DNA of 58,879 bases from a virus. Positions within the stretch are counted from its first letter, which is position 1, and each line of letters begins with the position of its first letter. Shown here piece by piece: positions 6,853 through 58,879 of this stretch. The notes under the pieces were generated by a model. That model was not told where the DNA came from, ran no database searches, and saw only the letters and a list, made by a program, of their open reading frames with translations. The stretch covers positions 1-58,879 of IMG/VR virus record IMGVR_UViG_3300002835_000213, one strand, 5' to 3'. The position numbers and the translations under genes are program-made.

Positions 6853-6854
6853 TT

Positions 6855-19208: not shown

Positions 19209-19535
19209 ATGGATTATATTATAGATGAAATTTATGAAATTTTTTGTGATACAGACAAACTACTTACAGTAACCTTTAAGGTTGAGGGTGACATTGAAGA
19301 TTCTTATAGGGAATTAATTGACAGTGAATATTATAATTGGTGTAACGAACATTACATTACCGAAGGTGAAAACTTAGTAGACTATGATCGTTACGATGAT
19401 GAAGATGAATATATGTCAGACTTCTTTAATCACGACAAATGGAATATGTATTACTCCAATGAGGATATGATTATTGAATACTTATATGAGAACTATTCAG
19501 ATTTGAGAACCTTACCTTCACCAAAGGTAGATTAG
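19209..19535 (+). CDS. Acidic hypothetical protein
   Basis: This 108-aa strongly acidic protein (DYDRYDDEDEYMSDFF) is rich in Tyr and has no TM or known motif. It overlaps by 4 bases the end of the convergent 802-aa polyprotein-like gene. Function unknown. Confidence 0.6.
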   Translation: MDYIIDEIYEIFCDTDKLLTVTFKVEGDIEDSYRELIDSEYYNWCNEHYITEGENLVDYDRYDDEDEYMSDFFNHDKWNMYYSNEDMIIEYLYENYSDLRTLPSPKVD

Positions 19536-21940
19536 TATCTCCAATCTATCCAATCTATAGAGTCACCTTTATAGTATTCTACATATAGTACATCGTCAGT
19601 CTCAATATCCTGAACTCTAGATTCTGTTGGTTTACTAACAGAATTTGTGGAAGAATTATATACACTGTCATCATATATATGAACCATTTTACCAAATAGT
19701 TTAGACAGTATTTTTTCAGAATCTGTTGAGTCAAACCCCATAGAATATAAATTGTATATGTAAGGTGGTTCTAATTTGGGTACTACTTTATCTATTAAGT
19801 CATTGGTAACTGATTCGTTTATATCACCCATCGTATGAATCTGTAAATTCTCAACACCTTTATCGAAATCTGCCCAATCACCGTTAGGCCATTCCCTATA
19901 GGTTAGTCTACCATTATTTCTATCCCTAACTTCAATGAATTGTTGGTAAAAATCCAAATGTACTTCTTTACTAAAAACAACACTAAGTATTGTATCCCAT
20001 TCAGATTGTGGTATACCTAAAGATTCTAAATCAGAAAAATAAGGTGGATTGATTAATTTTGAAATTTTATCGAATAAAATTTTTTTTTTATCGATAGACT
20101 CGTTGACTAAATCATTTACACCACCTTTTATAATTTGCCCATCACTAGTGACTAAATTAACTTTTAAGTTTACTCCATTTTCTTTTCCCCACTGTTTAAA
20201 CTCAATGGCGTGTGGTTCTCTATCTTCCCACATTTCTATCTGATTAACATTAGGGAATCTATTCAGTAGACTTTTAATGGTATTAAATTTACTAGTCAAA
20301 GTATCGCCATTACCTTTATAGTGATATTCATCAAAAGATATGTTATGTAATAGTAATAATTCTTCTATTTGTTCTGACTGATGTGGTATTCTACCTGTTA
20401 ACATTATTACTAAAGTACTAGGATTAGATTTCTCTCTTAGGTAATCTGCAACAGTATTTTCTATAGGTTGTATGTCGAATACTGCATCATCTAAAGACTC
20501 TGGTTTACTCCACCATCCTATATGTGGATATTCTTTACCAGTAAATTCCTCCCACTGTTTCTTACCTTCTTCAGGGTGTGGTGTCTTCATTAATGTACCA
20601 TCGAAATCAAATATTGAAATTTTGTTGATTAGATTATAACTTTCTACTAGTAATTTTACTTTCTTATTGTATCTAACACTTTCGTTTAAATCTAAAACAC
20701 TACCTGAAACCCAATTAGTTAATTCTTCTATGGGTGTTATATGTGTTTGATCATCGTATGTGAATTTAACTTTATTATTTTTAAAGTCGATATCGTTACT
20801 ATATAGTGTTAATATACCATTTCTAGCCATATAATATTCACCCTGCGAAGTGTCTGTTATTTTTTTAAAACCTAATTTATTTAATAAATCTAAAACATAC
20901 TTTCTATTTAATATTAACTCCTCTAAGTCAATATCTTCTGATTCAGTAATTTTTTCTATTGTGGATTTTAATGATCTGTTTAGTTCGGTAACCACCTCAT
21001 CTACACCATCACTATCAATCCACTCACCGTAGTAAGCATCCTCCAAATCAACATCAGGTTGTATTTCCGCATCTTTTAATTCAGAAAGATTAAGTAGATT
21101 CCTTTCTTTTACTATTTCTATTAATTCAACATACGGTATTTCTATACAATAATCACCGAATCTACATCTAGTTTTATTAGTATCGTATTTAATTTCATTT
21201 GTATAAGTTTTTCTTACACTATCTTGTCTAGCCCTAGTTATGACAATACTCATCTCACCTATATAATCATCAACTATCCTTTCGTAATATTCTTTAGGTA
21301 ATACTTCACCTAAAAAATCGTTAACTTCTTGTTCCCCAATCTTTTTACCATCTTTACCAGGCCATTCAGATAACCCTGACAGTATCGCCAAAGTTTCTAA
21401 GTGTTCTACTGTCTCATCATTAGTATATACATAATCAAACTCTGATGTTTCTATTTCTTCATAGTAATCACCATAAGAACTAAATGCCTCATAATATTTC
21501 CATAAATCATCATCACCTAACCCAGAAAAATATTTTTCCCATTCATCTCTATCTAAAGTTATTGTCACTGACTCATTTCCAAAGTCTAAACAGGGTGTAT
21601 TGTAGTTATTACATAAAACAAACCAGTCACCGATTAAAGAGTCTAATTTTTCACGATTGTTATCATATAACTCATCTATATATTCATTTACGTTTGAATT
21701 TAATAAAGATATATTATTCAAAAAATTGAGAAGAGGTCCTTCTCTATCTACTTCTATTGTATCGTAATCACCAGTACCCTTATTATAGTACCAAAGTCTA
21801 TATAAATCTAGTACCTCAGATTTATCCAACCCAAATTCATCTTTAAGTATTTTAAACACTTGATCCTTATTGGAGGTGTTATCAATCTTTTTATCTAAAT
21901 AGGATAGTATTTTTATCTCAAATTTCGTAAGTTTGTCCAT
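19532..21940 (-). CDS. Multi-domain protein: family C, HAD phosphatase, two family B modules
   Basis: This is an 802-aa minus-strand protein. Residues 1-62 are a family C domain (FEIKILSYLDKK to DEFGLDKSEVLDLYRLWYY). A long acidic part follows. About residues 435-610 are a HAD phosphatase, with FDFDGTLMKTP (nucleophile), MLTGR and EMWEDREPHAIEF, resembling Swiss-Army-Knife RNA-repair HAD domains. The C-terminus has two family B modules (NPPYFSDLESLGIPQSEWD and EPPYIYNLYSMGF). Between modules lie DLNE|S, LLVE|S, LVNE|S and DINE|S, matching the I/L-x-E cleavage signature, so it may be cut into separate proteins. Confidence 0.75.
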   Translation of the reverse strand: MDKLTKFEIKILSYLDKKIDNTSNKDQVFKILKDEFGLDKSEVLDLYRLWYYNKGTGDYDTIEVDREGPLLNFLNNISLLNSNVNEYIDELYDNNREKLDSLIGDWFVLCNNYNTPCLDFGNESVTITLDRDEWEKYFSGLGDDDLWKYYEAFSSYGDYYEEIETSEFDYVYTNDETVEHLETLAILSGLSEWPGKDGKKIGEQEVNDFLGEVLPKEYYERIVDDYIGEMSIVITRARQDSVRKTYTNEIKYDTNKTRCRFGDYCIEIPYVELIEIVKERNLLNLSELKDAEIQPDVDLEDAYYGEWIDSDGVDEVVTELNRSLKSTIEKITESEDIDLEELILNRKYVLDLLNKLGFKKITDTSQGEYYMARNGILTLYSNDIDFKNNKVKFTYDDQTHITPIEELTNWVSGSVLDLNESVRYNKKVKLLVESYNLINKISIFDFDGTLMKTPHPEEGKKQWEEFTGKEYPHIGWWSKPESLDDAVFDIQPIENTVADYLREKSNPSTLVIMLTGRIPHQSEQIEELLLLHNISFDEYHYKGNGDTLTSKFNTIKSLLNRFPNVNQIEMWEDREPHAIEFKQWGKENGVNLKVNLVTSDGQIIKGGVNDLVNESIDKKKILFDKISKLINPPYFSDLESLGIPQSEWDTILSVVFSKEVHLDFYQQFIEVRDRNNGRLTYREWPNGDWADFDKGVENLQIHTMGDINESVTNDLIDKVVPKLEPPYIYNLYSMGFDSTDSEKILSKLFGKMVHIYDDSVYNSSTNSVSKPTESRVQDIETDDVLYVEYYKGDSIDWIDWRY

Positions 21941-32040: not shown

Positions 32041-32055
32041 TATAGCATAAAAGTT

Positions 32056-32586: not shown

Positions 32587-32589
32587 TGT

Positions 32590-37965: not shown

Positions 37966-37970
37966 ATATT

Positions 37971-42963: not shown

Positions 42964-43030
42964 TTATATCATAACAATTTCATAATATACAAAGGTTACA
43001 CAATATAGTTTATCTTAGTATATATACGAT

Positions 43031-43123: not shown

Positions 43124-43152
43124 ATCCTCACCTCATAAGTGGGGATTTTTTG
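43121..43152 (+). terminator. Rho-independent terminator
   Basis: AATCCTCAC pairs with GTGGGGATT (one T-G) and is followed by T residues. Confidence 0.85.
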
Positions 43153-43163
43153 TATATATAATA

Positions 43164-43171
43164 TATTTATA
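43164..43171 (+). promoter_or_regulatory. TATTTATA motif (candidate late promoter)
   Basis: TATTTATA 13 bases before the tagged gene at 43185, immediately after a terminator. The leader matches that of 42649 almost base for base. Confidence 0.45.
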
Positions 43172-43184
43172 ATAAAATATTATT

Positions 43185-43622: not shown

Positions 43623-43685
43623 ATTTTAAACACCCCCATATTTTTTAATTGGGAATTTTTGTTATAATATAATGAAATATTAGAT

Positions 43686-44971: not shown

Positions 44972-44972
44972 T

Positions 44973-45410
44973 ATGAAAAATCTACAAGAACAAATATCAA
45001 GGATACAATCAATGATGGGAGTTATATCTGAAAACATTCCACAACTTGGTATGTCAAGTGGTAAACCAATTTCAGACGAAGAAAAAGAAAGTATGGACAA
45101 ATATACGGAACAACTTACATTAAATGAATTAATTGAGATGTTAGATTATATTCCATACTACAAAGAAGTTTTACAGGATGTTCAAAACAAAGAATATGAT
45201 TGGGGTGTAACAAAAAAGGTTATGGAATATGCAGATTACTTAAAAAAGAACCCTGAATCAATATACAATCTTCCCCCAATAATAATAGTTAATGGAACAC
45301 TACAAGATGGGGCACATAGATTATCGGCATTATATTTATTACAGAACCATTTAGATTCTAATAATCCTTTGTGGGGTGATACAAAACTTAATGTTGAATT
45401 TTATAATTAA
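44973..45410 (+). CDS. Tagged ParB/sulfiredoxin-like domain protein
   Basis: This 145-aa protein starts MKNLQEQISRIQSMMGVISE. The C-terminal part has NLPPIIIVNGTLQDGAHRLS then ALYLL, the P-I-x-V...DGxHRxxA signature of ParB-like N-terminal nuclease folds. In this fold the motif can hydrolyse CTP or ATP or act as a nuclease. Tagged, so inferred to be packaged. Confidence 0.78.
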   Translation: MKNLQEQISRIQSMMGVISENIPQLGMSSGKPISDEEKESMDKYTEQLTLNELIEMLDYIPYYKEVLQDVQNKEYDWGVTKKVMEYADYLKKNPESIYNLPPIIIVNGTLQDGAHRLSALYLLQNHLDSNNPLWGDTKLNVEFYN

Positions 45411-45411
45411 T

Positions 45412-45828
45412 ATGAAACTACAAGAACAAATAAGAAGAATAATAAAGGAAGAACTATACTCACCTAAAGGTACTGAAATGACACCTAATAAGTTCGTTGT
45501 TCACCAGTCAAATCCTGTGTGGAGAGATAATATAAAACTTACTGGTTTACAAACATCGGTGGGAGAATGTTATCAAAGTTATGTAGGTGGTGATGTGGAA
45601 TGTCAACCATCAATTTTTGCTACAGATTCTCTAAATAAAGAAGATATGTTTGATGATGGTTACGATGATGATATATGGTTAATAGATACAGAATGTGCGG
45701 GAGTTACTTGGTATAGGGATACACATTTTGAAGGGGGTGATTACGAACATCACATAGTAACATTTGAGAATATACCGTCTAACTGTATAAAATTAATTTA
45801 TAAAGGAAGTGGTAAAAGTATTTGGTAA
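45412..45828 (+). CDS. Tagged protein, possible ADP-ribosyl/phosphotransferase-like fold
   Basis: This 138-aa protein starts MKLQEQIRRIIKEELYSPKG. The mature part has FVVHQSNPVWRDNIKLTGLQ, PSIFATDSL, DDDIWLIDTECAGVTWYRDT and HHIVTFENIPSNCIKLIY. The H...I...GL...PsIFaT order resembles ART or RNA 2'-phosphotransferase-type folds. The match is weak. ATG 45412 restores the tag and follows the previous stop. Confidence 0.65.
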   Translation: MKLQEQIRRIIKEELYSPKGTEMTPNKFVVHQSNPVWRDNIKLTGLQTSVGECYQSYVGGDVECQPSIFATDSLNKEDMFDDGYDDDIWLIDTECAGVTWYRDTHFEGGDYEHHIVTFENIPSNCIKLIYKGSGKSIW

Positions 45829-45829
45829 T

Positions 45830-46156
45830 ATGAATCTACAAAAACAAATACATAGAATAAAATCTATGATGGGTTTAATAACCGAATCAAATGATTATAT
45901 AGAAAGATTATATATTGATTGGGATGAAAACTATGGTAATTCATTTAAAATAGTTCATACACCTGAAGGTACTCAAACAGGTGGTGAATGGAACCCTGAT
46001 TTAATATCAATTGTTACACCTGAAAATACAAATGCATGGTATGAATGGGAAGAATTACCTGAAGAAAAATTAATAGGGTGGAAAGAAAATTGGGACGGAA
46101 TACAAAAAGGATTAGGGGTTCACAAGTATAATCAAATAATTAGAAGTATGTCATAA
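45830..46156 (+). CDS. Tagged small acidic protein
   Basis: This 108-aa protein starts MNLQKQIHRIKSMMGLITES, tag ending L-I-T-E|S. The remainder is acidic and Trp-rich (GGEWNPDLISIV; EWEELPEEKLIGWKENW). No family recognised. Part of a run of seven tagged genes. Confidence 0.7.
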   Translation: MNLQKQIHRIKSMMGLITESNDYIERLYIDWDENYGNSFKIVHTPEGTQTGGEWNPDLISIVTPENTNAWYEWEELPEEKLIGWKENWDGIQKGLGVHKYNQIIRSMS

Positions 46157-46157
46157 T

Positions 46158-46526
46158 ATGAATCTACAAGAACAAATACATAGAATTATAGAAATGATGG
46201 ACATATCTGATATGAATATATTAGACGAACCATTACAAATATGTGGAGAAAGCCCAATGACAGGATATTACAGAGATGGATATTGTAAGACAGGTAGTTC
46301 TGATAAAGGAACACACACAGTTTGTAGTGAAGTTGATGATCGATTTCTTGAGTTTACAAAGTCAAAAGGAAATGATTTATCTATGTTAAAAAGTGGGGAT
46401 AGATGGTGTTTATGTGCAAAAAGATGGAAAGAGGCGTATGATGAAGGAGTTGCACCAAAGGTGATAAAAAACGCAACAAACAAAGAAACATTAGATGTTA
46501 TTGGTGATGAGATTAAAGATGTGTAA
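46158..46526 (+). CDS. Tagged DUF2237-like protein
   Basis: This 122-aa protein starts MNLQEQIHRIIEMMDISDMN. From residue 21 it matches DUF2237: ILDEPLQICGESPMTGYYRD, GSSDKGTHTVCSEVDDRFLE, FTKSKGNDLSMLKSGDRWCL then CAKRWKEA and GVAPKVIKNAT. The cellular family is a small Cys-rich conserved protein of unknown function. Here it carries the phage tag, with ILDE|P as candidate cut. Confidence 0.85.
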   Translation: MNLQEQIHRIIEMMDISDMNILDEPLQICGESPMTGYYRDGYCKTGSSDKGTHTVCSEVDDRFLEFTKSKGNDLSMLKSGDRWCLCAKRWKEAYDEGVAPKVIKNATNKETLDVIGDEIKDV

Positions 46527-46536
46527 TTAAAAGAAT

Positions 46537-47001
46537 ATGAACCTAAAAGAAAATATAAAAAGAATATTGAAGGAGGAATCCGATGGGGTTGATAAGAATT
46601 TATTTTTATCTAGAATAAAAAAGTTTGGGTTGTATTATTTTATGGAGACAACACAAATGTCACTTACAAATATATTACTTAAAATAGGTGAACTACCGAG
46701 AGATATAATAGAACGATACATCATAGATTTCATAATGGATGAAGGTACAAAAGATTATTATGGTGAGGAAGGTGAATTATATGTAGATATTAATTTATAT
46801 TTGACAGGTTTAAAAGTTATAGATAAAGTAATCAGTGATGGTAATTTACTAGAGATTGAGGTAACAGAATATGAGAGGGGACATTACGGTTATAATGAAG
46901 AGGTTGCCAATTATATAAATGAATCAAAGGAATTTGATGATGGTGTTATATACGAAATATTTAATACCATTAGAAAAAAGAAAGACTTCCAAAGACGATA
47001 A
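46537..47001 (+). CDS. Tagged acidic helical protein
   Basis: This 154-aa protein starts MNLKENIKRILKEESDGVDK (I-L-K-E|E). The remainder is helical and acidic (ELPRDIIERYIIDFIMDEGT) with no recognised fold. It ends the tagged array and is followed by a terminator. Confidence 0.7.
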   Translation: MNLKENIKRILKEESDGVDKNLFLSRIKKFGLYYFMETTQMSLTNILLKIGELPRDIIERYIIDFIMDEGTKDYYGEEGELYVDINLYLTGLKVIDKVISDGNLLEIEVTEYERGHYGYNEEVANYINESKEFDDGVIYEIFNTIRKKKDFQRR

Positions 47002-48677: not shown

Positions 48678-49670
48678 ATGAATAGAGAGAGATATATAGA
48701 GAGAGTATTAGATACGATTATTAAGGATACACAGATAGATAAGAAGGATCTGAGAATAGTATATCCTTTTAATCAACCTTTGTATGCGTTACAAACAAAT
48801 TTCTATTTACCACTACATAAAAACTTCTATGAATACTGTAAGGATCAGTATGGGTTATCTTTAGTAGAGTGTAAAGAACTATGGTATAGATATAGTGATT
48901 CAATTAATTATGATTTTAGTGGTAGTATAAATGAATTATATCTACACGGTAATTTAGAACCATCCGAAAGTGATCCGAGACAGACATTAAGAATATACGG
49001 TTTCAACAGTGAGGGACATTATAAATTCTTTATGAGAGTATATAATAGGATCATTGACTCAATAGGGTTGGTACATAGTTTTGGTGATAATGTAGATATA
49101 TTATACATTAATGAATTCGGTAGAACTAGAGAAGGTTTGTTAGGTTTAAATGTATGGTTGGAGGATGGTGATCCACGTGAAGATTTTAAATCATTTTCTA
49201 ATAGGTATACTGATTATATATTCAGATGTTGTATACAGTTAATGACTGAAGGATTACCAGATGGTGGACAATATGTATCTATCACTTTAACTGATATGAT
49301 ATTAAAATATATCTATGAGAATGTATTTGAAAATAGAATACTTCAAAAGAAGTTTAATATTAATGAATCAGATGAGAGAATGGATCGTTTTGTTGATAAG
49401 GTATTACAGTTCTTAAAGGATGATACATATCAGATAGGAGAAGATTTAATACGTGTACCATTCTTAGATCAACCAGTATCTATTAGTTATAAGAGTAAAA
49501 GAGTACATACCGTAATAGAGATTATAATGTTTATAGATGAACCACCTAAACCATTTACTCATTACTGTATTGAAACTTATGGATTGGATCCACAAACCAT
49601 TAATTCATTATGGGATCAGTATAGAGTATTCCTTATGGAGAACTTTCATAGATTAAAAAAAACTTATTAA
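48678..49670 (+). CDS. Family A protein, two modules
   Basis: This 330-aa protein has two family A modules. Module 1: RYIERVLDTIIKDTQI, IVYPFNQPL, then FYEYCKDQYGLSLVECKELW. Module 2, after INE|SDER at about residue 227: RFVDKVLQFLKDDTYQ, IRVPFLDQP, then THYCIETYGLDPQTINSLW. The inter-module I-N-E|S matches the predicted prohead-protease signature. Function unknown; inferred virion polyprotein. Confidence 0.75.
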   Translation: MNRERYIERVLDTIIKDTQIDKKDLRIVYPFNQPLYALQTNFYLPLHKNFYEYCKDQYGLSLVECKELWYRYSDSINYDFSGSINELYLHGNLEPSESDPRQTLRIYGFNSEGHYKFFMRVYNRIIDSIGLVHSFGDNVDILYINEFGRTREGLLGLNVWLEDGDPREDFKSFSNRYTDYIFRCCIQLMTEGLPDGGQYVSITLTDMILKYIYENVFENRILQKKFNINESDERMDRFVDKVLQFLKDDTYQIGEDLIRVPFLDQPVSISYKSKRVHTVIEIIMFIDEPPKPFTHYCIETYGLDPQTINSLWDQYRVFLMENFHRLKKTY

Positions 49671-49939: not shown

Positions 49940-50812
49940 ATGAAGGTAACAATTAAAGGAATCATTAAGGAATCGAATGATTATAAACAAAGATATTATG
50001 ATAAACTATCTAAGGTAATACGTCCACCATACTTTTTGGATCTACAAAGATTAGGTGTACCAGAGGATGAATGGAGAGGTGTGTTTTATACATTATATAA
50101 TCAAAATGTATTAGTGTCTTCATTCTATCGTGATGAACAAATAACAGGTGGTATAGTAACAGATAAGGGAACTAATATATTATACTATGAAGGTGAAGGT
50201 GGTGACTATGTGATCAGAGAATTCGATAAGAACGATAATGTAACATATCTATTTAAAACAGATGGTAAAGGAAATGAATATTGGGAGAAATCAATATTTA
50301 ATGATAAGGGTGAATCTATATACTATGAAAACTCTGAGGGTAAAATATCTGATGTAAAGGATCCAGATTATGATCTCAATGAGTCTGTGTATAGTGATAA
50401 ACTAATAGATAAAATAATAGATACATTGAAACCACCATTTAGGTATGATCTAGAATCATTAGGGATACCAAGAGATGAATGGGATGGTATTATATCTAAA
50501 GTATTTAATGAGGACTTAGTGGTGAAGGATGTAGTAGACGCCATATACGTTACAGATATATATGGACAATCTAGATATATGGAATCTAGAAACGGTAATT
50601 ATTTTATTGATGAATACGATGATGATGGTAATGTAATATATAAGGAAAGTAATTATCCTAACTCTGGTACTAAATATAAAGAATGGTTTACATATGGTGA
50701 TGGAAAACTTATAGACTATATAGATAGTAATGGTAGAGGGTTGGATCAGTATTTAAGATCCTCTGAATATTATACTAGAAAAGAGAGTGTAAAAAAGAGA
50801 TATGGGTATTGA
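49940..50812 (+). CDS. Tagged protein with two family B modules
   Basis: This 290-aa protein starts MKVTIKGIIKESNDYKQRYY, tag I-I-K-E|S. Module 1: DKLSKVIRPPYFLDLQRLGV then PEDEWRGVFYTLYNQ. Near residue 146, DLNE|SVYSDK leads to module 2: IIDTLKPPFRYDLESLGIPR then DEWDGIISKVF. Each module continues with a beta-rich acidic part (TNILYYEGEGGDYVIREFDK). Inferred head polyprotein cleaved into two similar units. Confidence 0.76.
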   Translation: MKVTIKGIIKESNDYKQRYYDKLSKVIRPPYFLDLQRLGVPEDEWRGVFYTLYNQNVLVSSFYRDEQITGGIVTDKGTNILYYEGEGGDYVIREFDKNDNVTYLFKTDGKGNEYWEKSIFNDKGESIYYENSEGKISDVKDPDYDLNESVYSDKLIDKIIDTLKPPFRYDLESLGIPRDEWDGIISKVFNEDLVVKDVVDAIYVTDIYGQSRYMESRNGNYFIDEYDDDGNVIYKESNYPNSGTKYKEWFTYGDGKLIDYIDSNGRGLDQYLRSSEYYTRKESVKKRYGY

Positions 50813-50860
50813 CTTTTTAATTTAATATAGTTAATATTGTATCATAGTTGTTTGATATAT

Positions 50861-50955
50861 TAATCTACGGGGTTCCTTCCTTCCTCCCCACCCTATGGAA
50901 GGAAAAGGTGATTATGGATGAACAATTGTTTGTCATCACTGGACAACGTAGATTA
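50861..50955 (+). ncRNA. Structured non-coding RNA segment
   Basis: The 9-bp closing helix TAATCTACG/CGTAGATTA (50861-50869/50947-50955) surrounds two hairpins: TTCCTTCC/GGAAGGAA (50873-50880/50897-50904) and GTGAT/ATCAC (50908-50912/50935-50939) with the palindrome AACAATTGTT at its tip. It follows the family B gene and has no reading frame. It could be a 3' element or a separate RNA; I see no clear promoter. Confidence 0.5.
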
Positions 50956-51000
50956 GATGAAGGGACGTAACGTATTGAACAAAAGATATGGTTACACTTC

Positions 51001-51075
51001 ATCACATAAGAAGGGATAATATAATCATCGTAACAGTGTGATCTGTAAAACGAAAAAAATTATCCCTTTTTTTAT
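51001..51075 (+). terminator. Large terminator-like pseudoknot
   Basis: A perfect 10-bp stem AAGGGATAAT/ATTATCCCTT (51011-51020/51059-51068) is followed by T residues. A second helix ATCACA/TGTGAT (51001-51006/51037-51042) interleaves with it, giving an H-type pseudoknot topology. It ends the 49940 transcript or the preceding RNA. Confidence 0.6.
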
Positions 51076-51085
51076 TCCCTATAAT

Positions 51086-51116
51086 TTGACATTGTAATAT
51101 TTTATCCTTATATTTG
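51086..51116 (+). promoter_or_regulatory. Strong Bacteroidota-type promoter with extended box
   Basis: TTGACATTGTAAT from 51086, a 20-base spacer and TATATTTG at 51109-51116. It is one of the best promoters in the window and is followed by non-coding sequence. Confidence 0.88.
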
Positions 51117-51122
51117 TAGTAT

Positions 51123-51338
51123 GAAAAATACCTAAACCATATATATAGTCCGTAGGGGGAGGGGGGTACTTTGTGTACAGTAATATATACAATACCTCTC
51201 CCCTAGAGGGGAGTCCCCCCTCAGGTACCCCTACATCACCCCCCTTCCCTCTGGGGGTGTTTTGACGTAAAGGGGGTAGGTGATGTTGTCCACAAATTTT
51301 CCAGGAAATTTTAAGGTTTAGAAATGAACCTTTTTTTA
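51123..51338 (+). ncRNA. GC-rich structured RNA with own promoter and terminator
   Basis: This 215-base stretch is far more GC-rich than its surroundings and lacks a plausible gene. Strong helices: GGGGTAC/GTACCCC (51163-51169/51225-51231), CTCCCC-TAGA-GGGGAG (51198-51213), and ACATCACC plus CCCCTT (51233-51246) against AAGGGG and GGTGATGT (51270-51286). It is bounded by an excellent promoter and by the terminator AAGGTT/AACCTT plus T run (51313-51338). This is the strongest candidate for a discrete phage small RNA here. Confidence 0.68.
51313..51338 (+). terminator. Rho-independent terminator of the GC-rich RNA
   Basis: AAGGTT pairs with AACCTT around an 8-base loop, followed by a run of T. 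Confidence 0.75.
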
Positions 51339-51430
51339 TTTTATATCCCCCACAAACAACACCCATTTCTGGTGGGGTTAGGGGTACCCTTCAAAATTTT
51401 CCAGGAATTTTTTCGTTTCCAAATATTTCA
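51339..51430. other. Gap after the GC-rich RNA
   Basis: No gene is seen. TTTTCCAGGAA occurs at about 51297-51307 and again at about 51398-51408, and GGGGTACC recurs near 51383. These may be remnants of duplicated RNA or regulatory sequence. Confidence 0.35.
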
Positions 51431-51431
51431 A

Positions 51432-51439
51432 TATTTATA
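51432..51439 (+). promoter_or_regulatory. TATTTATA motif (candidate late promoter)
   Basis: TATTTATA 2 bases before ATG 51442 and 8 before ATG 51448. The tight spacing favours the second ATG as start if this is a promoter box. Confidence 0.4.
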
Positions 51440-51441
51440 TT

Positions 51442-51762
51442 ATGTATATGGAGGATAAATTAGGAAGATATTTCAATTATGTTGTTGACGATTTAGTTAA
51501 GAGAACCAAACACTGGACAAAACCTTCCAACAGAGATCACATAGGTGTGAATTTTCCAATGTATGGTATTGAGGAATTAGAATTTTATTATACGGAAGAT
51601 GAACTAAAGGAGTGGTTACATAGTGGATGGTTAATCGGTACCGATGACATTAAATACCTTGTGGGATATTATGGGTTAACAGAAGATGAGTGTCGTAGAG
51701 TTATGGATATGTACGGAATAAAATTGGCAACTTTATTAATATCAAAGTATGGAGAACAATAG
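51442..51762 (+). CDS. Family A protein, single module
   Basis: This 106-aa protein (MYMEDKLGRYFNYVVDDLVK; an ATG at 51448 is an attractive alternative) is a single family A module: helix FNYVVDDLVKRT, strand INF-type VNFPMYG, then LVGYYGLTEDECRRVMDMYG. It is most like the product at 57956, sharing a WL-GT-DIKY segment. It overlaps the six-module gene by 14 bases. Confidence 0.72.
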   Translation: MYMEDKLGRYFNYVVDDLVKRTKHWTKPSNRDHIGVNFPMYGIEELEFYYTEDELKEWLHSGWLIGTDDIKYLVGYYGLTEDECRRVMDMYGIKLATLLISKYGEQ

Positions 51763-53632
51763 AAAAAATTTTTTACATAAGGTGGTAGAGTTTCTGGTTA
51801 AGGACACTATTATAGACTATGGGGATAACCATATAGATTTTCCTTTTTTTCCATCGTACAGATTATATATTAGTGACGCCAATTTAGATTATTTTTTTCA
51901 TAAGGGTAGATACTCTCAATACTGTAAAGACAACTATGGTTTAACTCATGAAGAATCTCTGTATGTTTGGGGTATTTATATTGATATGATTAAAGAAAAG
52001 ATTAATAATAAAGGTGGTTCTATCAATGAGTCTGATGACAGAAGAAAAAACTTTTTAGATAAGGTTGTTGATTTTTTAGTTAAGGACACCAAAGTAAATT
52101 ATGATAATAAGACGTTATTTTTTCCTTTTACATATAATAACTCACTTAGACAAGGTAGTAGTAATCTCACAACTTTTCATAAACGTCTTTTTGATACATA
52201 TATTCCTATTGATGGTTTTACGGAATACATTGAGGAAATGTATGGAATTAATTTAACGGAGGACATTGATTATGTTTGGGAGACATATAAGGTTATTATG
52301 TATAATATTGTATTTGGTAATAATGTCAGTCCCCTCTACTTTAATGAGTCTGACGATAGAAAAATAAAGTACTTAGATAAGGTTGTAGATTTTTTAGTTA
52401 AGGATACCAAAGTGGATTATGAGGAAAGGGAAATATTTTTTCCTTTTACTCAAAAGATTGCAACTAGACGAAATACTGATAATTCTACACCGTTCCATAA
52501 AATTCTTTTTCATAAGGATAGTGTTATTCCTATAGGTGGTTTTATGGAATACATTGAGGAAATATATGGTATAACATATATAAAAGATGTTTCTTATGTA
52601 TGGGGGAAATATAAGGATATAATGAGGAACACTATGTTTGGTGACGATCCTACTAATGAACCTATCTATGAATCTGATGATAAGAAACAGAATTACCTTA
52701 ATAAGATTATTGATTGGTTGGTTAGTGATACAGACGTGAATAGTCTTTGGTTTGAACCCCCATATAAAACTGGTAATTTGTACGCAGAAAATAGTATCAC
52801 ACTTTCTTCTCTTTATAAACAAACGTTTGGTTTATTAAAATACGTTACTGATGTAGAATCTGTAAAATTCGCAATTCAGAAGAATTATTTTAAAAAATTC
52901 TGTGAGGAACAATATGGACTTACAGAAGATGAGACTGAATATGTGTGGAAAGGGTTTATGAAAGATTTATATGAATCTGAAAAATACAATTCTTTAAATG
53001 AATCTGAAGTTAGGAAACAAAAATATTTGGATAAGATTCTTAAGTGGTTTGTTGACGATACTATAATTAGATATGAAACGGGTGTTATAATATATCCTTT
53101 TTCTCAGATAGGTCCGAATGGTAAACCGTTACCTAGTTTTATTGATGATTTAAAAAATAAACTTTCGTGGGGTATGTCTTCGGATATACAGATAACTTGT
53201 AGGGATACTTATGGGTTAAACTATGATGAGACAAAATACATTTGGAATAACTATAAAAAAATTATTAAGGATAGGTACAATAAAGAATCTATAATGTATG
53301 ATCTTAAACCCATAAATGAATCTGACGATAAGAAACAGGCTTATTTAGATAAGATTGTTGATTGGTTGTTTAAGGATACCGAAGTTGGTAATAGTTGGTT
53401 TAACCCTCCTTATTATTATCCAGGCAGTTCCGCAGGTAGGACTGGATTTAAATCGGTTTATGAACACACATTTGGTTTATCGACAAATAATACTTATAGT
53501 GGGTTAGATTCTCAGTTAATTTATTTTGATAGTTACTGTAAGAACAATTATGGACTTACTGGTGAGGAGACTAAAATTGTTTGGTTTGAGTATATGAAGA
53601 AATTAAAGGAGTCTTATGATTGGAGATTTTAA
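51749..53632 (+). CDS. Six-module family A polyprotein
   Basis: This 627-aa protein is six family A modules of about 105 aa. Each has FLDKVVDFLVKDT-type helix, an F-P-F strand and YCKDNYGLTHEESLYVW-type end. Joints fall near residues 91, 197, 306, 417 and 523 with linkers SINE|SDDR, YFNE|SDDR, PIYE|SDDK, SLNE|SEVR and PINE|SDDK. Four linkers match (I/L)-x-E|S and one has F. This regularity strongly suggests a precursor cut into similar small proteins, or a beads-on-a-string scaffold. Confidence 0.8.
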   Translation: MENNRKNFLHKVVEFLVKDTIIDYGDNHIDFPFFPSYRLYISDANLDYFFHKGRYSQYCKDNYGLTHEESLYVWGIYIDMIKEKINNKGGSINESDDRRKNFLDKVVDFLVKDTKVNYDNKTLFFPFTYNNSLRQGSSNLTTFHKRLFDTYIPIDGFTEYIEEMYGINLTEDIDYVWETYKVIMYNIVFGNNVSPLYFNESDDRKIKYLDKVVDFLVKDTKVDYEEREIFFPFTQKIATRRNTDNSTPFHKILFHKDSVIPIGGFMEYIEEIYGITYIKDVSYVWGKYKDIMRNTMFGDDPTNEPIYESDDKKQNYLNKIIDWLVSDTDVNSLWFEPPYKTGNLYAENSITLSSLYKQTFGLLKYVTDVESVKFAIQKNYFKKFCEEQYGLTEDETEYVWKGFMKDLYESEKYNSLNESEVRKQKYLDKILKWFVDDTIIRYETGVIIYPFSQIGPNGKPLPSFIDDLKNKLSWGMSSDIQITCRDTYGLNYDETKYIWNNYKKIIKDRYNKESIMYDLKPINESDDKKQAYLDKIVDWLFKDTEVGNSWFNPPYYYPGSSAGRTGFKSVYEHTFGLSTNNTYSGLDSQLIYFDSYCKNNYGLTGEETKIVWFEYMKKLKESYDWRF

Positions 53633-53636
53633 ACGG

Positions 53637-53785
53637 TTGTACGACCGAACTGTTCCATCACCCCGACCCCTCTAATGTAGAATTTGTGTCCGCGCAAAAA
53701 TTGTGATGGACTTGGTTAGAGACTTGTTCTTACGATCCCATTACCTAAAGATGGGCAACCCACTTACGGAGTGGGTTTTTTTATT
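53637..53785 (+). ncRNA. Pseudoknotted RNA element with duplicated 5' segment
   Basis: The first 40 bases (53637-53676) recur at 54896-54935 with only a couple of differences. TCCATCAC (53654-53661) pairs with GTGATGGA (53703-53710), while CTCTAA (53670-53675) pairs with TTAGAG after it, giving a pseudoknot order. GTCC/GGAC adds support. It ends in the terminator at 53758. It could be a 3' UTR element of the six-module gene or a processed RNA. Confidence 0.5.
53758..53785 (+). terminator. Rho-independent terminator
   Basis: AACCCACT pairs with AGTGGGTT around a short loop, followed by T residues. Confidence 0.9.
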
Positions 53786-53793
53786 TTTTATAA

Positions 53794-53801
53794 TATTTAT
53801 A
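53794..53801 (+). promoter_or_regulatory. TATTTATA motif (candidate late promoter)
   Basis: TATTTATA right after a terminator and 4 bases before the tagged gene at 53806. Confidence 0.42.
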
Positions 53802-53805
53802 TTGT

Positions 53806-54291
53806 ATGAAAATAATTGTAACAGAAAATCAAGTTAATCGTTTATTCATTAATGAGAATGAGGAATTACTAAATAAGATTCTCGATAAGATTAGTGATTA
53901 CGGTATGGAGTCGTTGACGGACAACGAAAAAAAGTTCTTAGATGATATGTCTAAGGATAAGGTTGATCCACATATCGAAAATTTACTTAATATGGACTCA
54001 GGTTACGAGTTCGAGGGCGAGGTGGATGAAGTACCTGTTAAGTTCACTTACGAGTCCACAGAGGAGTGGGATGACAATCCTAAAGAATATAAACACATAG
54101 GTATATTTAATTTTATGAATGGTACTGATGAAATAGATTATTACGCTGAGTTATATACTGACGCAGATTATAACTTTATGCATTTCGATTTACACGATGG
54201 TGTAGATTATGTTAGTCTAAATGAGGATCTTGAGGATGAGTTAACTCATTTCTTTTTGGATGTGAGTAATAAGTTGGCACAGTCGATGTAA
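53806..54291 (+). CDS. Tagged acidic protein with DUF6576-like segment
   Basis: This 161-aa protein starts MKIIVTENQVNRLFINENEE, tag ending F-I-N-E|N. Next, LLNKILDKISDYGMESLTDN then EKKFLDDMS is very like the C-terminal tail of Bacteroidota rhomboid proteins (DUF6576). An acidic beta-rich domain follows. The host-like segment suggests capture or mimicry of a host sequence. It adjoins a family A gene. Confidence 0.75.
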   Translation: MKIIVTENQVNRLFINENEELLNKILDKISDYGMESLTDNEKKFLDDMSKDKVDPHIENLLNMDSGYEFEGEVDEVPVKFTYESTEEWDDNPKEYKHIGIFNFMNGTDEIDYYAELYTDADYNFMHFDLHDGVDYVSLNEDLEDELTHFFLDVSNKLAQSM

Positions 54292-54891
54292 ATGGATAAA
54301 GGTAGACACATATTTTTAGAAAAGGTAGTTAACCGTTTGGTTAAAGATAGTATAATCACCTATGATAAATATGAGGGGGACACTGTGGTAATCACACCTT
54401 TTCCTGTTATGGATGGTTATCTTACAAAACGTTGGTTTGGTACTAATGCGGTAGGTAGTAGGATGCCATCTTTTAAAACTTATATAGAATATACATACGG
54501 TGTTACAGATACCGAAGAAATTAATTACATATACAGTTATTACGAAAGTATAATTTCAGATAAATTAGATAACGATATGATTACTGAAAATATCTATCAC
54601 GATATTTTTGGTGAAAAGGTTTCTAACTATATGGAAAAAGTTCTTAAGTATTTGGTGAGTGACACTTATATTAAAGAAATGTCGGATGGTGGGACTATGA
54701 TAGAGGTACCATTTTCAGATTTCCAGTATAGTAGAATTAGACATTTTAATGTAGGATTTTTTATTGATTATTGTAAGGACACTTATGGTTTAACTCGAAA
54801 GGAATCTGAATACTTATGGGGTGATTATTTAAATGAGATGGATTATATCCTTAAATACGAATTTGGGATTAAGGATCCTGTTTATCATTAA
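54292..54891 (+). CDS. Family A protein, two modules
   Basis: This 199-aa protein has module 1: IFLEKVVNRLVKDSIITYDK, ITPFPVMDG, FKTYIEYTYGVTDTEEINYI. After MITE|NIYHD near residue 97 comes module 2: NYMEKVLKYLVSDTYIKEMS, IEVPFSDF, IDYCKDTYGLTRKESEYLW. I-T-E matches the cleavage signature. Confidence 0.75.
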   Translation: MDKGRHIFLEKVVNRLVKDSIITYDKYEGDTVVITPFPVMDGYLTKRWFGTNAVGSRMPSFKTYIEYTYGVTDTEEINYIYSYYESIISDKLDNDMITENIYHDIFGEKVSNYMEKVLKYLVSDTYIKEMSDGGTMIEVPFSDFQYSRIRHFNVGFFIDYCKDTYGLTRKESEYLWGDYLNEMDYILKYEFGIKDPVYH

Positions 54892-54895
54892 ACCT

Positions 54896-54935
54896 TTGTA
54901 CGACCGAACTGTTCCATCACCCCAGCCCCTCTAAT
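54896..54935 (+). repeat. Second copy of the 40-bp 3' repeat
   Basis: This copy matches 53637-53676 except for a base or two (GACCCC versus AGCCCC region). Each copy directly follows a family A gene, so the repeat is probably a shared 3' element or a duplication footprint. Confidence 0.85.
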
Positions 54936-55002
54936 CGGACATTTTTATAAAATCTAATATATTTATCTAATCGGACATTTTTATAAAATCTAATATATTT
55001 AT
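54931..55002 (+). repeat. Perfect 36-bp tandem duplication carrying a promoter-like motif
   Basis: Two identical 36-base units (54931-54966 and 54967-55002) each contain CTAATCGGACATTTTTATAA and end ATATTTAT. The first unit overlaps the 40-bp repeat. The downstream edge forms TATTTATA before the tagged gene at 55019, so the duplication may double a promoter or operator. Confidence 0.9.
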
Positions 55003-55003
55003 A
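54996..55003 (+). promoter_or_regulatory. TATTTATA motif (candidate late promoter)
   Basis: TATTTATA at the end of the tandem duplication, 15 bases before the tagged gene. Confidence 0.42.
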
Positions 55004-55018
55004 TAAAAACTAAAAAAA

Positions 55019-55654
55019 ATGAAAAGACATATTAATAATTTAAACGAAACGATTGAAAGAATGAAATCTCTTTTTACAGAAGAGAGAATGTTTGGTAACT
55101 TAGTTGTAGAAGAGAAATCTTCCGAAGAAGATAAGGGAGAAGAAGATGTGGATAGTGAAGAATCTACATCAACAAAACCTGAATGTTGTACAAGTTGTAA
55201 CTGTTGGGGAGATTGTGGTGGATCATCACACTTCAACGGAACCAATGGTAGACCTAAAATTGTTGTAGATAAGAGTGATAGTTATTTTTCGGTATCATAC
55301 GATGGACCATCTACGGGTTATTTAATTAAACACGGTAAATGTGGGTCTGGTGACTCCATACATCAACTATGTAATGTTTTAACATATGAGATAAACAAAT
55401 ACCTTAAAGGTAAAAAATTAAAACCAAATATCAACGATATAGAATTCGAAAAAGATGGTGGAGAATTCACTATTGGTGTTCCTTTAGAACCTTCTGAAAA
55501 AAGTTATAAACTAGAAAGAAGAGGAAGATGGAACGGTGGTGAGTCAGGGAAACAAGAAGTAATAAGTGCCTATAGTGATAGATCAGGATATGAAGGTCCT
55601 GTAAGATATTCTTCTGGTGGTGTAATAGAATTCTTTGTAACATTTTACGAATAA
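55019..55654 (+). CDS. Tagged Cys-rich protein
   Basis: This 211-aa protein starts MKRHINNLNETIERMKSLFT then EE|RMFGNLVVEEK: an RIK-type tag ending L-F-T-E. An acidic linker precedes a Cys cluster (ECCTSCNCWGDCGG) and a beta-rich domain (SYDGPSTGYLIKHGKCGSGD). The Cys cluster may bind metal. Inferred packaged protein, function unknown. Confidence 0.72.
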   Translation: MKRHINNLNETIERMKSLFTEERMFGNLVVEEKSSEEDKGEEDVDSEESTSTKPECCTSCNCWGDCGGSSHFNGTNGRPKIVVDKSDSYFSVSYDGPSTGYLIKHGKCGSGDSIHQLCNVLTYEINKYLKGKKLKPNINDIEFEKDGGEFTIGVPLEPSEKSYKLERRGRWNGGESGKQEVISAYSDRSGYEGPVRYSSGGVIEFFVTFYE

Positions 55655-55660
55655 AATAAT

Positions 55661-55691
55661 TTGACGTTGTAACAAAATTTTTGTATATTTG
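55661..55691 (+). promoter_or_regulatory. Bacteroidota-type promoter
   Basis: TTGACGTTGTAA from 55661, a 20-base spacer and TATATTTG at 55684-55691. Only 4 bases separate it from the next ATG. Confidence 0.82.
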
Positions 55692-55695
55692 TTAC

Positions 55696-56316
55696 ATGGT
55701 TAATCAAAGATTTATTGAAAAGATTTATAAATTCCATAATTTTGGGATTGAGGTTGATTGTATCCCTACAAATTATTATAGTGATGATGGGGAAATATAT
55801 GTAATTTTTTTTGATGGTATAGATATACATCACTACGGTGGTGAATACTACGAATCAATTATGAATCTAATAACGTTAAGTGAATGTGTGTATAAACACA
55901 CCATAGATGACGATAGAAGTAAAACCTACCCATACCCACATAAAAGTAATAAGATAAAATTTTCTGGTTATCTAAGAGAAGTCATCTGTAGAGTTTACGG
56001 ACATTTTGTAGAAGAAATGAATGTGAGTAAAGATGAGTTTAGTTATGTGTGGGATTTATTCGTAACAGATATAAATAAAGTAATAAAAGAAAAATCAATT
56101 AAATTAATTTTTGAGGATAGGTCTTGTAAACCTTTAGACATTAATCTTTTATTATTTCCAAAATATAATAAAATATGGGATAGACTTACGAATGATATTA
56201 TAAGCCCTAAAAAATATGATGGTAGAAAAGTTAGTATTACATCTACCGTTAGGAGTAAAGATTATACTTTGTTTAATCAACATCACGATATAAAGTTCAT
56301 TGAATTAACCTTTTAA
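55696..56316 (+). CDS. Divergent family A-like protein
   Basis: From ATG 55696 this 206-aa protein starts MVNQRFIEKIYKFHNFGIEV. The segment KFSGYLREVICRVYGHFVEE then MNVSKDEFSYVWDLFVTDI resembles the C-terminal half of family A modules. Unlike other family A genes it has a host-type promoter, so it may be expressed early. The ATG is chosen because an upstream Met would lie inside the promoter box. Confidence 0.65.
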   Translation: MVNQRFIEKIYKFHNFGIEVDCIPTNYYSDDGEIYVIFFDGIDIHHYGGEYYESIMNLITLSECVYKHTIDDDRSKTYPYPHKSNKIKFSGYLREVICRVYGHFVEEMNVSKDEFSYVWDLFVTDINKVIKEKSIKLIFEDRSCKPLDINLLLFPKYNKIWDRLTNDIISPKKYDGRKVSITSTVRSKDYTLFNQHHDIKFIELTF

Positions 56317-56331
56317 TTACTGAATCTTTCT

Positions 56332-56352
56332 AACCCCTTCTAAGGGGTTTTT
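56332..56352 (+). terminator. Rho-independent terminator
   Basis: AACCCC/GGGGTT with a 6-base loop is followed by T residues. Confidence 0.85.
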
Positions 56353-56393
56353 TATTGCCTTCGTTATATTTATTATTATAAATTACACTAACG

Positions 56394-56918
56394 GTGAACG
56401 ACTACATAAAAAAAATACTGAGTAAATTATCTAACCCATCTTGGTCATTAGAAAAAAGAAGTGATTTTGTAGATGTTTATGGTTTATCTGAAGATGAATA
56501 CTTAAATGGTATTGTTGATTTTGAGGTTAATCAGTTAAATAAATTACAGAATGAATTTTTTAGTACGTTAACATACAAATATTCAGGATCATACGATTTT
56601 GTTTTTAAAGTTACTAATATCCAATTTATTCAATACACCAAAGTATCTGTTTCATTAGAAAATAGTTTATTTGGTGAGGTAATTAGATTATATGTTGAAA
56701 TTGGTTACGGTGGTACTGTGGGAATAACGGATAATCTTGGACCAGTAACCGTATATATAACCGATGAACTAATTAGTGATAGTGATATCGGTTGGGAAAT
56801 AGATAATGAGGTAAAAGAAATCATTTTAGAAATGATAATGGAAAAAGGATCTGATTTATTTAAAAACATAAAAACAAACGATATTATCGAACTATATATA
56901 GAATACCCTAAAAAATAA
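56394..56918 (+). CDS. Hypothetical protein with helix-then-sheet layout
   Basis: This 174-aa protein with GTG start begins MNDYIKKILSKLSNPSWSLE, loosely like the short tags but without a clear I-x-E. A YGLSEDEYLNGIVDFEV segment echoes the YGL motif of families A and C. The C-terminal half is beta-rich. TATTTATT lies upstream. Function unknown. Confidence 0.65.
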   Translation: MNDYIKKILSKLSNPSWSLEKRSDFVDVYGLSEDEYLNGIVDFEVNQLNKLQNEFFSTLTYKYSGSYDFVFKVTNIQFIQYTKVSVSLENSLFGEVIRLYVEIGYGGTVGITDNLGPVTVYITDELISDSDIGWEIDNEVKEIILEMIMEKGSDLFKNIKTNDIIELYIEYPKK

Positions 56919-56939
56919 TAATAAAATAAAAAAAACACA

Positions 56940-57275
56940 ATGGATAAATTGACAAATAAAGACATTAAAAGAATTGTAGAGAACTTCATCAATGAAGGTA
57001 TGAGTAATGATGAGGCTGCCCATCTATATAGAAGAATACAAAGAAATGGGGAAGATATAGACTCAATTATAATGAAGTTTAGAGGTGCAAAAAATGAGTT
57101 AGACGATAAAATTAAAACACATATTAAAAGAGAAACTGGTGGTGCTATTTTTGATCCAAATCAAAGAACACCAAACGATGTATTAGATAGTGCGGCAACA
57201 CTTAATAGAGTTTTAAATAATTTAGAAAGTTTAATTAGTGAATATAAAACTATTATTAGAAGAAGTATAAACTAA
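56940..57275 (+). CDS. Tagged helical protein
   Basis: This 111-aa protein starts MDKLTNKDIKRIVENFINEG, an SDL-like tag ending F-I-N-E|G. The rest is helical (AAHLYRRIQRNGEDIDSIIM; LNRVLNNLESLISEYKTIIR), perhaps a small coiled coil. Inferred cargo. Confidence 0.7.
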   Translation: MDKLTNKDIKRIVENFINEGMSNDEAAHLYRRIQRNGEDIDSIIMKFRGAKNELDDKIKTHIKRETGGAIFDPNQRTPNDVLDSAATLNRVLNNLESLISEYKTIIRRSIN

Positions 57276-57276
57276 A

Positions 57277-57966
57277 ATGGACAAATCATTAATTGATAAA
57301 ATATCTAAGGTAATAAAAAAACCGTATGTCTCTGATTTATTGAGTTTGGCGGTACCTCAGGAATATTGGGGTACTATATTTAAAAAAATATATGGTGACA
57401 TTACCACTACAGAAATTGAAACTGACTACGCAGATGGGATAGTTAAACCAAACCAATACTTTTTCTTTACAATTAGAAAAGTTTTCCCTAATGTCGGAAG
57501 TGTAATGGTATATTATGAAGGATGGGATGGTGACTGGGTTGAAATGATACTTGATGATAGGGGACATAAAATAGGGTACGAAGACGCAAATGGTTTTGTA
57601 GATACAACAGAAAAAACAGATATAAGTGAAAGTCACAATAAAAATGTAGACGTATATTTAAACAAAGTAGTTGATTTCTTATTAAGAGATACTAAATGTA
57701 GAGTACATCACACTACATATGGATTTAGCCCAAATTATAAGGAAGTAAAGGTTGAGGTAAAATTCCCACTATATAGTGATATAGCCAATTACGAAAGACA
57801 TGAGGTTGAGAATTGGACTGAGGCAGTAATTAGTGACTTTGAGTCTAAATTTTTTTCGGATAACTATGGTTTAGACAGAAATGAATCACAGATAGTTTTT
57901 GAAAAGTTTATATTAAAACTAAGGGATAAAATTTTAAATGAAATGGAATTAAAGTATGGACAGTAA
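57277..57966 (+). CDS. Fusion of family B and family A modules
   Basis: This 229-aa protein has a family B module at the N-terminus (DKISKVIKKPYVSDLLSLAV then PQEYWGTIFKKIYG) and a family A module at the C-terminus (VDVYLNKVVDFLLRDTKCRV; FFSDNYGLDRNESQIVFEKF). The joint at about residue 115 is TDISE|SHNK, matching I-x-E|S. It links the two families in a single polypeptide and supports a common destination. It overlaps the next gene. Confidence 0.76.
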   Translation: MDKSLIDKISKVIKKPYVSDLLSLAVPQEYWGTIFKKIYGDITTTEIETDYADGIVKPNQYFFFTIRKVFPNVGSVMVYYEGWDGDWVEMILDDRGHKIGYEDANGFVDTTEKTDISESHNKNVDVYLNKVVDFLLRDTKCRVHHTTYGFSPNYKEVKVEVKFPLYSDIANYERHEVENWTEAVISDFESKFFSDNYGLDRNESQIVFEKFILKLRDKILNEMELKYGQ

Positions 57967-58294
57967 AATTTTACCTTATTTAGAAAAAATTGTATCTAAT
58001 TTAATTAGGGATACAGAGTATAAAATACATACAGTAAATTATGGGGGGACTATTGGGGATTTATTAGTAGATATTTATTTCCCTATGTATCCCGATGAAG
58101 GATATACTTATACCGAACATGAGTTATTGGATTGGATAAAGGATCCAACTTGGTTAGTTGGTACAAGTGACATAAAATATTTTGAAAACTATTATGGTTT
58201 GTCGGAATATGAGACAGAAATTGTTTTAAATATGTTTTTGTTAAAATTCTCATCTATAATTTACGATGAAATGGGAAAACATAAAACTTTTTAA
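57956..58294 (+). CDS. Family A protein, single module
   Basis: This 112-aa protein, MDSKILPYLEKIVSNLIRDT, has the module end YFENYYGLSEYETEIVLNMF. It is closest to the product at 51442 (shared WLVGTSDIKY-type segment). No N-terminal tag. Confidence 0.73.
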   Translation: MDSKILPYLEKIVSNLIRDTEYKIHTVNYGGTIGDLLVDIYFPMYPDEGYTYTEHELLDWIKDPTWLVGTSDIKYFENYYGLSEYETEIVLNMFLLKFSSIIYDEMGKHKTF

Positions 58295-58304
58295 AGTAAG
58301 TTAA

Positions 58305-58312
58305 TATTTATA
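58305..58312 (+). promoter_or_regulatory. TATTTATA motif (candidate late promoter)
   Basis: TATTTATA 15 bases before the tagged gene at 58328. Confidence 0.42.
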
Positions 58313-58327
58313 AATAAAATAATTGAT

Positions 58328-58696
58328 ATGAAAAAAATAGTTAGATTAAAAGAATCGGATTTACATAGAATTGTAAAAAGAGTAATTAGAGAAAGTCAAA
58401 ACCCTATACTAAATGAGTTAGGTGGTATGGATGATGGTCACCCGTTTTCTGGTAGTATGAACTTTAATGATTTATCATCTGATGACAGAGAAAAGGTTAA
58501 TAAATATTATAGAGTTGATGATGTAGAAGTGGGCGATTCTTTTTCTGAATTAGATAGTGAATTAGAAGATGATTTTGAGGATGATGAATACCCAAAACCA
58601 AGTATGAGACATAATAGAGAATACCCAAAACCAAGTATGAGACATAATAGAAATAGTGAAATACCATTTCGACCACGTCCATTTAATAGAGATTAA
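58328..58696 (+). CDS. Tagged acidic protein with tandem 11-residue repeat
   Basis: This 122-aa protein starts MKKIVRLKESDLHRIVKRVI, tag ending V-I-R-E|S, with a second candidate site PILNE|L. The middle is acidic (SELDSELEDDFEDDEYP). The C-terminus has two copies of EYPKPSMRHNR followed by a basic Pro/Arg tail. Probably disordered cargo. Confidence 0.7.
   Translation: MKKIVRLKESDLHRIVKRVIRESQNPILNELGGMDDGHPFSGSMNFNDLSSDDREKVNKYYRVDDVEVGDSFSELDSELEDDFEDDEYPKPSMRHNREYPKPSMRHNRNSEIPFRPRPFNRD
58586..58651 (+). repeat. Perfect 33-bp tandem duplication in a coding region
   Basis: Two identical 33-base units (58586-58618 and 58619-58651) encode the EYPKPSMRHNR repeat. Perfect identity suggests recent slippage or assembly duplication. 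Confidence 0.9.
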
Positions 58697-58700
58697 TATT

Positions 58701-58879
58701 ATGAAAAATTTAATCAGAAGAATATTAAAAGAAGAGGTCGAGGAGGCTTCTCTCAGCAAACATCCTAACGCAGAAGAAATAAAAAAAGGTAAGAAAACTG
58801 GTTGTTATAAAGTTAACAGTGGTGATCAAATGTTAAAAATTGCATTGGCTTTCGGAATTACTTTAGACGATATTAAGGC
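58701..58879 (+). CDS. Tagged LysM-domain protein (3' truncated by window)
   Basis: The visible 59 residues begin MKNLIRRILKEEVEEAS (tag I-L-K-E|E). Then GCYKVNSGDQMLKIALAFGI followed by TLDDIK has the YxVxSGDxxxKIAxxFGxTxDDI pattern of a LysM motif. LysM binds peptidoglycan, so the full protein could be a packaged or tail-associated cell-wall enzyme. The gene runs past the end of the window. Confidence 0.7.
   Translation, partial: MKNLIRRILKEEVEEASLSKHPNAEEIKKGKKTGCYKVNSGDQMLKIALAFGITLDDIK

Follow-up and report, generated by a model that had tools for sequence, protein, structure and literature searches.

A six-module reading frame in a T4-like phage as a candidate substrate of the prohead protease

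Why would a phage join six related small domains in one reading frame and place nearly the same four residues at every joint? The question arises from a 58.9-kb virus fragment of an uncultured T4-like phage (30% G+C), here called the window and analyzed over its full 58,879 nucleotides. An open reading frame (ORF) on its plus strand (51749..53632) encodes 627 amino acids, about 75 kDa at full length, and divides into six modules of one family, called family A. Also on the plus strand, these are module 1 (51749..52030; 94 aa; C-terminal SINE), module 2 (52031..52348; 106 aa; C-terminal YFNE), module 3 (52349..52672; 108 aa; C-terminal PIYE; the first row of the AlphaFold model), module 4 (52673..53002; 110 aa; C-terminal SLNE), module 5 (53003..53320; 106 aa; C-terminal PINE), and module 6 (53321..53629; 103 aa), which is without a terminal IxE. 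The plus-strand joints read INE↓S at 52022..52033 (SINE↓SDDRR), FNE↓S at 52340..52351 (YFNE↓SDDRK), IYE↓S at 52664..52675 (PIYE↓SDDKK), LNE↓S at 52994..53005 (SLNE↓SEVRK), and INE↓S at 53312..53323 (PINE↓SDDKK), with the arrow marking the putative cut; [I/L/F]-[N/Y]-E↓S occupies five of five. The answer favored here, with moderate confidence, is that the ORF encodes a polyprotein processed by the prohead protease to release head proteins of ~12 kDa, which are probably ejected into the host.

The initial annotation of this DNA described six paralogous modules of about 105 aa with similar linkers, and the ORF call, the split, a module HMM, and BLAST bear this out. The HMM finds all six modules (i-E 8e-31 to 9e-23), a result that is partly by construction because the model was built including the window modules, and BLAST between modules of three related polyproteins gives about 29 to 100% identity. 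As paralogs, the modules have diverged and would give six different proteins rather than the multiple copies of a small protein first proposed. The suggestion that they are DNA-directed finds no support, since most are acidic (pI 4.7-5.7 in five of six; 8.6 in the remaining one). The codons at the joints differ (ATC/ATA/TTA, GAA/GAG, TCT/TCA/TCG/TCC) while the residues are kept, indicating that conservation acts through selection on the protein.

It had also been claimed that chance does not easily explain the motif, and the statistics agree. Outside the polyproteins, the window and its relatives have a background of 0.275 [ILVF][NY]ES per 1000 aa; at that rate 0.17 would be expected in 627 aa, and 6 are observed, 5 of those at joints (Poisson P for at least five ~1e-6). 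Shuffling the modules 2000 times gave a mean of 0.13 strict motifs and a maximum of 2. The Poisson value overstates the case, since the joints may owe part of their similarity to duplication, and joints between unrelated domains, described below, are the better argument. Confinement of the motif to joints, as originally stated, does not hold, as the pattern is also matched by LYES at aa 407, 9 aa ahead of joint 4, and by LKES at aa 619. Inside the modules the loose form [IL]xE shows no enrichment or depletion: it occurs 7 times off the joints, and shuffles give a mean of ~6 over the whole ORF. Selectivity of cutting would therefore have to stem from exposure.

Structure prediction, which the initial annotation had proposed as a check, gives a compact alpha/beta fold for a single module (mean pLDDT 75.7, pTM 0.70), with the first helix from residue 3. 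In a two-module model, which is weak overall (pTM 0.45), the joint (residues 98-107) falls below pLDDT 50, and this low confidence agrees with an exposed and flexible linker. Such a linker would also suit a protein that is never cut and stays as beads on a string, the joint combining flexibility with a helix N-cap (Ser-Asp-Asp) and being kept via tandem duplication. The modules are homologous, their first helix begins from module residue 2-3, Ser-Asp/Glu is a good N-cap, and duplication could copy the joint DNA. This explanation does not account for the hydrophobic P3 and the P1 Glu, which precede the helix and are missing in terminal modules, and modules at the start of an ORF lack the Ser N-cap; with the variable codons and the findings on unrelated domains and head proteins given below, it is considered unlikely.

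Family A also occurs in neighboring ORFs, all on the plus strand. A 330-aa ORF (48678..49670) has two family A modules, the second of which starts after NINE↓SDER (49359-49370). A family B module is joined to a family A module by DISE↓S (57622-57633) in the ORF at 57277..57966, and the gene at 57956..58294 is a single family A module recognized by the module HMM. The exception is a two-module ORF at 54292..54891, where module 2 is without a perfect site at its start and ITE↓N lies about 9 aa upstream (INE↓N in the relative G001). Another single-module gene (MYMEDK..., 51442..51762) overlaps the polyprotein ORF by 14 nt. The relative of this module in G001 (IMG/VR 3300027659_000009, 166 kb) is fused to another module as ...PLNE↓SEDK..., which indicates that gene boundaries and joints are interchangeable. 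The terminal xIxE is absent from 11 of 11 ORF-terminal family A modules; this half of the motif is present only where something follows.

Family A itself is an orphan, and no function is claimed for it. There was no credible match in Pfam, PHROGs, PADLOC, or PDB sequences, no credible fold match in the PDB or BFVD, and no credible match among INPHARED phages or bacterial genomes. A link to a leader-bearing zincin gene (L042:294) appeared by HMM (i-E 5e-4), but profile-profile comparison gave 6.5% probability and the link was dropped. Module HMM matches in two further records (G038 and G041) were weak, some with stop codons, and were left unused. Elsewhere in the window, ~630 bases (50813-51441) have no plus-strand gene, share 88-92% DNA identity with relatives, and contain a minus-strand ORF of 95 aa. 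A 688-aa ORF (9288-11354) has its only annotated-phage matches, at 26-31% identity, in LR745206 and LR756502 (635-642 kb, "huge phage").

The same joint is found between domains that are not related to each other. A second polyprotein of 802 aa, on the minus strand (19532..21940), has the order KITE↓S, DLNE↓S, HAD_SAK_1, LVNE↓S, family B, DINE↓S, family B. Its HAD_SAK_1 match (PF10307, aa 472-589, E 7.6e-11) is to an RNA-repair-type phosphatase domain, and homologs without the B modules (L200, L201) stop directly after HAD with no VNE. On the plus strand, the ORF at 49940..50812 has a leader-like MKVTIKGIIKE↓S followed by two family B modules joined by DLNE↓S. Family A was found more distantly in the diverged relative G006 (IMG/VR 3300023112_001138), in a 1435-aa ORF (L142:4890-9197) that carries several unrelated domains, some of them family A-related, with xxE↓S joints. 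The sites in this ORF include LNE↓S, VNE↓S, LGE↓S, and IRE↓S, and, of its internal A-like modules, the three whose start is detectable directly follow VNE↓S, LGE↓S, and IRE↓S, although one of the three HMM matches is weak by itself. The pairings seen across a joint are A-A, B-B, B-A, unknown-HAD, and HAD-B. A plain linker is made less likely by this sharing among unrelated domains, by the conditional presence of xIxE, and by the interchangeability of joints with gene boundaries. No peptidase domain was found in the 627-, 802-, or 1435-aa ORFs.

A candidate for the protease comes from near relatives, from which its assignment is taken because the head genes (protease, capsid) lie outside the 58.9-kb fragment. 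In both close relatives a Peptidase_S77/gp21 protein (85.6-87.4 bits, cut-off 27; E 2e-41 to phrog_207, "head maturation protease") adjoins the terminase, the portal, a scaffold-like protein, and a gp23-type capsid protein; the scaffold call is based on position and composition, with no family matched. T4 gp21 cuts after L/I-X-E (PMC9026906). All 79 capsid proteins aligned from the clade carry (I/L/M)-(N/T/S/C/K)-E↓(A/S/T/G/N) immediately ahead of the conserved shell domain, and both close relatives have LLNE↓S at this gp23-type maturation site. The scaffold-like C terminus has (L/I/V)xE↓(S/T/N/H) in 74 of 80 by the strict pattern, with variant sites in the rest and LNE↓S in the close relatives. 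The protease itself was examined for a conserved C-terminal self-cleavage site, and none was consistent across the clade.

The five joints equal the specificity inferred for this protease from capsid and scaffold. The joints thus match the phage group's own cleavage site, one deduced without recourse to the polyprotein, and this match also counts against an uncut linker. The original proposal that the prohead protease cleaves at the joints is well supported by the gp21-type protease, the site match, and the joints between unrelated domains, and the processing itself is predicted from them.

Comparison of close relatives suggests how the polyprotein changes. G001 has six modules in a different order, and G002 (IMG/VR 3300042936_001056, 53.9 kb) has a homologous polyprotein with five. 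One close relative is 99% identical to the window downstream of the polyprotein gene. Against G002, only two mismatches occur across 53307-58879. Upstream of this stretch, the second half of module 5 has diverged, and over modules 1-4 the two phages differ in both the count and the kind of module. The G002 breakpoints (52996/52997 and 53306/53307) fall at joints 4 and 5, from which modules appear to be exchanged as units, even among otherwise near-identical phages.

Breakpoints at joints could mean that the joint is mainly a recombination seam, a short stretch of shared DNA for cassette swaps with no proteolysis. Short repeated DNA does exist nearby: the 22-nt TGTACGACCGAACTGTTCCATC recurs a few bases past the stops of the polyprotein gene (53638-53659) and of the 54292 gene (54897-54918). 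Codons differ from one joint copy to the next with the amino acids preserved, and the motif also links domains without detectable shared history, making this the least probable of the explanations considered and a very improbable one. The two copies of TGTACGACCGAACTGTTCCATC are the only ones in the window, and it is also found behind both genes in L001 and L007; folding gave no clear conserved structure. An Rfam match to CRISPR-DR17, weak, below gathering, and overlapping a terminator-like hairpin, was judged to be chance.

Processing in the prohead requires that the precursor enter it, and many other ORFs in the window have what looks like an entry signal. They open with short helical leaders ending in (I/L)xE, such as MKKIIRLTE↓SDLxRIVKRVIRE↓, MNLQESIRRILRE↓, and MKIIITENQLKKILLNE↓. 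ORFs with leaders are at 6187-7846, 14279, 31555-33408, 36167-37971, 42649-47001, 53806, 55019, 56940, and 58328; leader-bearing ORFs are mutually unrelated, and some have a second internal site (LTE↓SDL...VIRE↓). An (I/L)xE-type site within residues 8-30 is found in 25 of 70 window proteins versus 8% expected, in 37 of 171 in G001 (7% expected), and in 19 of 76 in G006 (6% expected), and narrower leader patterns go in the same direction in eight records. The window leaders resemble T4 capsid-targeting sequences, and by analogy we infer that they do the same job; they may constitute a genome-wide capsid-targeting system. Searching phages by tblastn with a 24-aa leader returned nothing, as expected for so short a query. 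Leader-bearing genes outside the window include one for a conserved protein (L042:294-1334, L142:11148-12245) with the leader ILKE↓E and a C-terminal HExxH zincin-like domain behind INE↓G/VDE↓S, which is a candidate packaged metallopeptidase.

A targeting propeptide ending in (I/L)xE is absent from the 627-aa ORF, which starts with module 1 (MENNRKNFLHKVVEFLVKD), and the polyprotein's two homologs, as well as the 802-aa and 1435-aa ORFs, are likewise without a leader. This is the main weakness of the prohead-processing reading, the gap being entry. The joints were considered as relics of whole leaders, an idea that was dropped because the segments ahead of them lack the character of basic amphipathic helices. 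In T4, core proteins such as gp22 serve as prohead substrates without carrying an IP-type leader, and a missing leader is therefore not fatal.

The lack of leaders invites the explanation that the joints are cut outside the prohead, either by the prohead protease acting in the cytoplasm or by a different protease of the phage or the host. The products would then stay inside the cell and never be packaged. All of the polyproteins seen here are leaderless, although about a third of the other window proteins have a leader-like site, and relatives of a leader-bearing gene carry the HExxH zincin-like domain behind INE↓G or VDE↓S. The gp22 precedent weakens the first of these points, and the agreement with the capsid and scaffold sites favors the prohead protease as the enzyme. 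Proteases of the gp21 type act in prohead maturation (PMC9026906). Cutting outside the prohead is judged improbable, more so than an uncut chain.

The preferred reading, processing inside the prohead, can be set out as a series of steps, in which cleavage, packaging, and ejection of the modules are predicted from sequence. A precursor with six small paralogous domains would be taken into the prohead during head assembly. While maturing the capsid protein and scaffold, the gp21-type protease would sever the joints after Glu in (I/L/F)-(N/Y)-E↓S, and six proteins of ~11-13 kDa would remain in the head. These would be ejected with the DNA through the portal and act early in infection. The T4 portal is ~30 angstrom wide and is thought to pass the small folded IPI (PMC9026906), which would favor cutting a long chain into small units. 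The modules appear to be exchangeable cassettes, and the delivered set could change quickly between relatives. Cassette exchange suggests a role in host takeover or anti-defense, which is a guess, and its speed makes the modules candidates for an arms race with the host. The wider proposal has about an even chance of being right: that the clade's capsid-maturation protease is also a polyprotein protease, and that sets of cassette effectors are cut in the prohead and injected alongside dozens of leader-bearing proteins. Should the (I/L)xE rule hold, sequence alone could suffice to predict which proteins uncultured T4-like phages inject, and joints and leaders could be used as cargo-delivery tags.

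The nearest known counterparts are the T4 internal proteins IPI, IPII, and IPIII and Alt, which bear capsid-targeting sequences and are similar in being small proteins, in their placement in the head (predicted here), and in gp21-type trimming after (L/I)xE (PMC9026906). One of them, IPI, is small and folded, has an alpha/beta structure, and counteracts restriction (PMC9026906). The T4 system has one protein per gene with a short propeptide that is removed, whereas the ORF described here has six domains, a site at each joint, and no leader. Most modules are acidic and the T4 proteins are basic, and the sequence and fold of family A match nothing known in the databases searched.

Polyvalent proteins of phages and conjugative elements are also multidomain proteins with exchangeable domains; they are proposed to be codelivered with DNA and have been likened to RNA-virus polyproteins (Iyer et al. 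2017; PMC5512222). Their release is proposed to occur mainly through an embedded zincin-like peptidase or a C-terminal assemblin-like domain (PMC5512222), whereas no embedded peptidase, a frequent though not general feature of that class, was found here and the joints match a prohead protease acting in trans. Several different domains are a trait of polyvalent proteins; the 627-aa ORF has six paralogs, and the 802-aa ORF includes HAD_SAK_1.

In phiKZ and SPN3US, many head proteins are cut after Glu in a short motif, and SPN3US shows a preference for Ser at P1' and several cuts per propeptide (PMC10052503, PMC9026906). The reported SPN3US cuts remove propeptides (13 of 14 N-terminal) to leave one mature product, and P3 is Ala, not Ile/Leu as here. 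The T4 scaffold gp22 and core proteins have several internal (L/I)xE cuts, and the small fragments mostly leave the head; multiple (L/I)xE sites are a shared feature, but here the sites lie between folded domains. Prohead proteases are known for propeptide removal and scaffold clearing. No report of a prohead protease freeing several mature proteins from one precursor was found in a literature search that covered few subscription journals, so that the absence carries little weight. If the preferred reading is true, the prohead protease has a second job, the freeing of several folded proteins from one precursor. This would account for the ability of a large phage to load many small proteins in a single assembly step. 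Under the wider proposal, a DNA phage would have its own equivalent of the polyprotein processing seen in RNA viruses, and swapping cassettes at the joints would alter the injected set.
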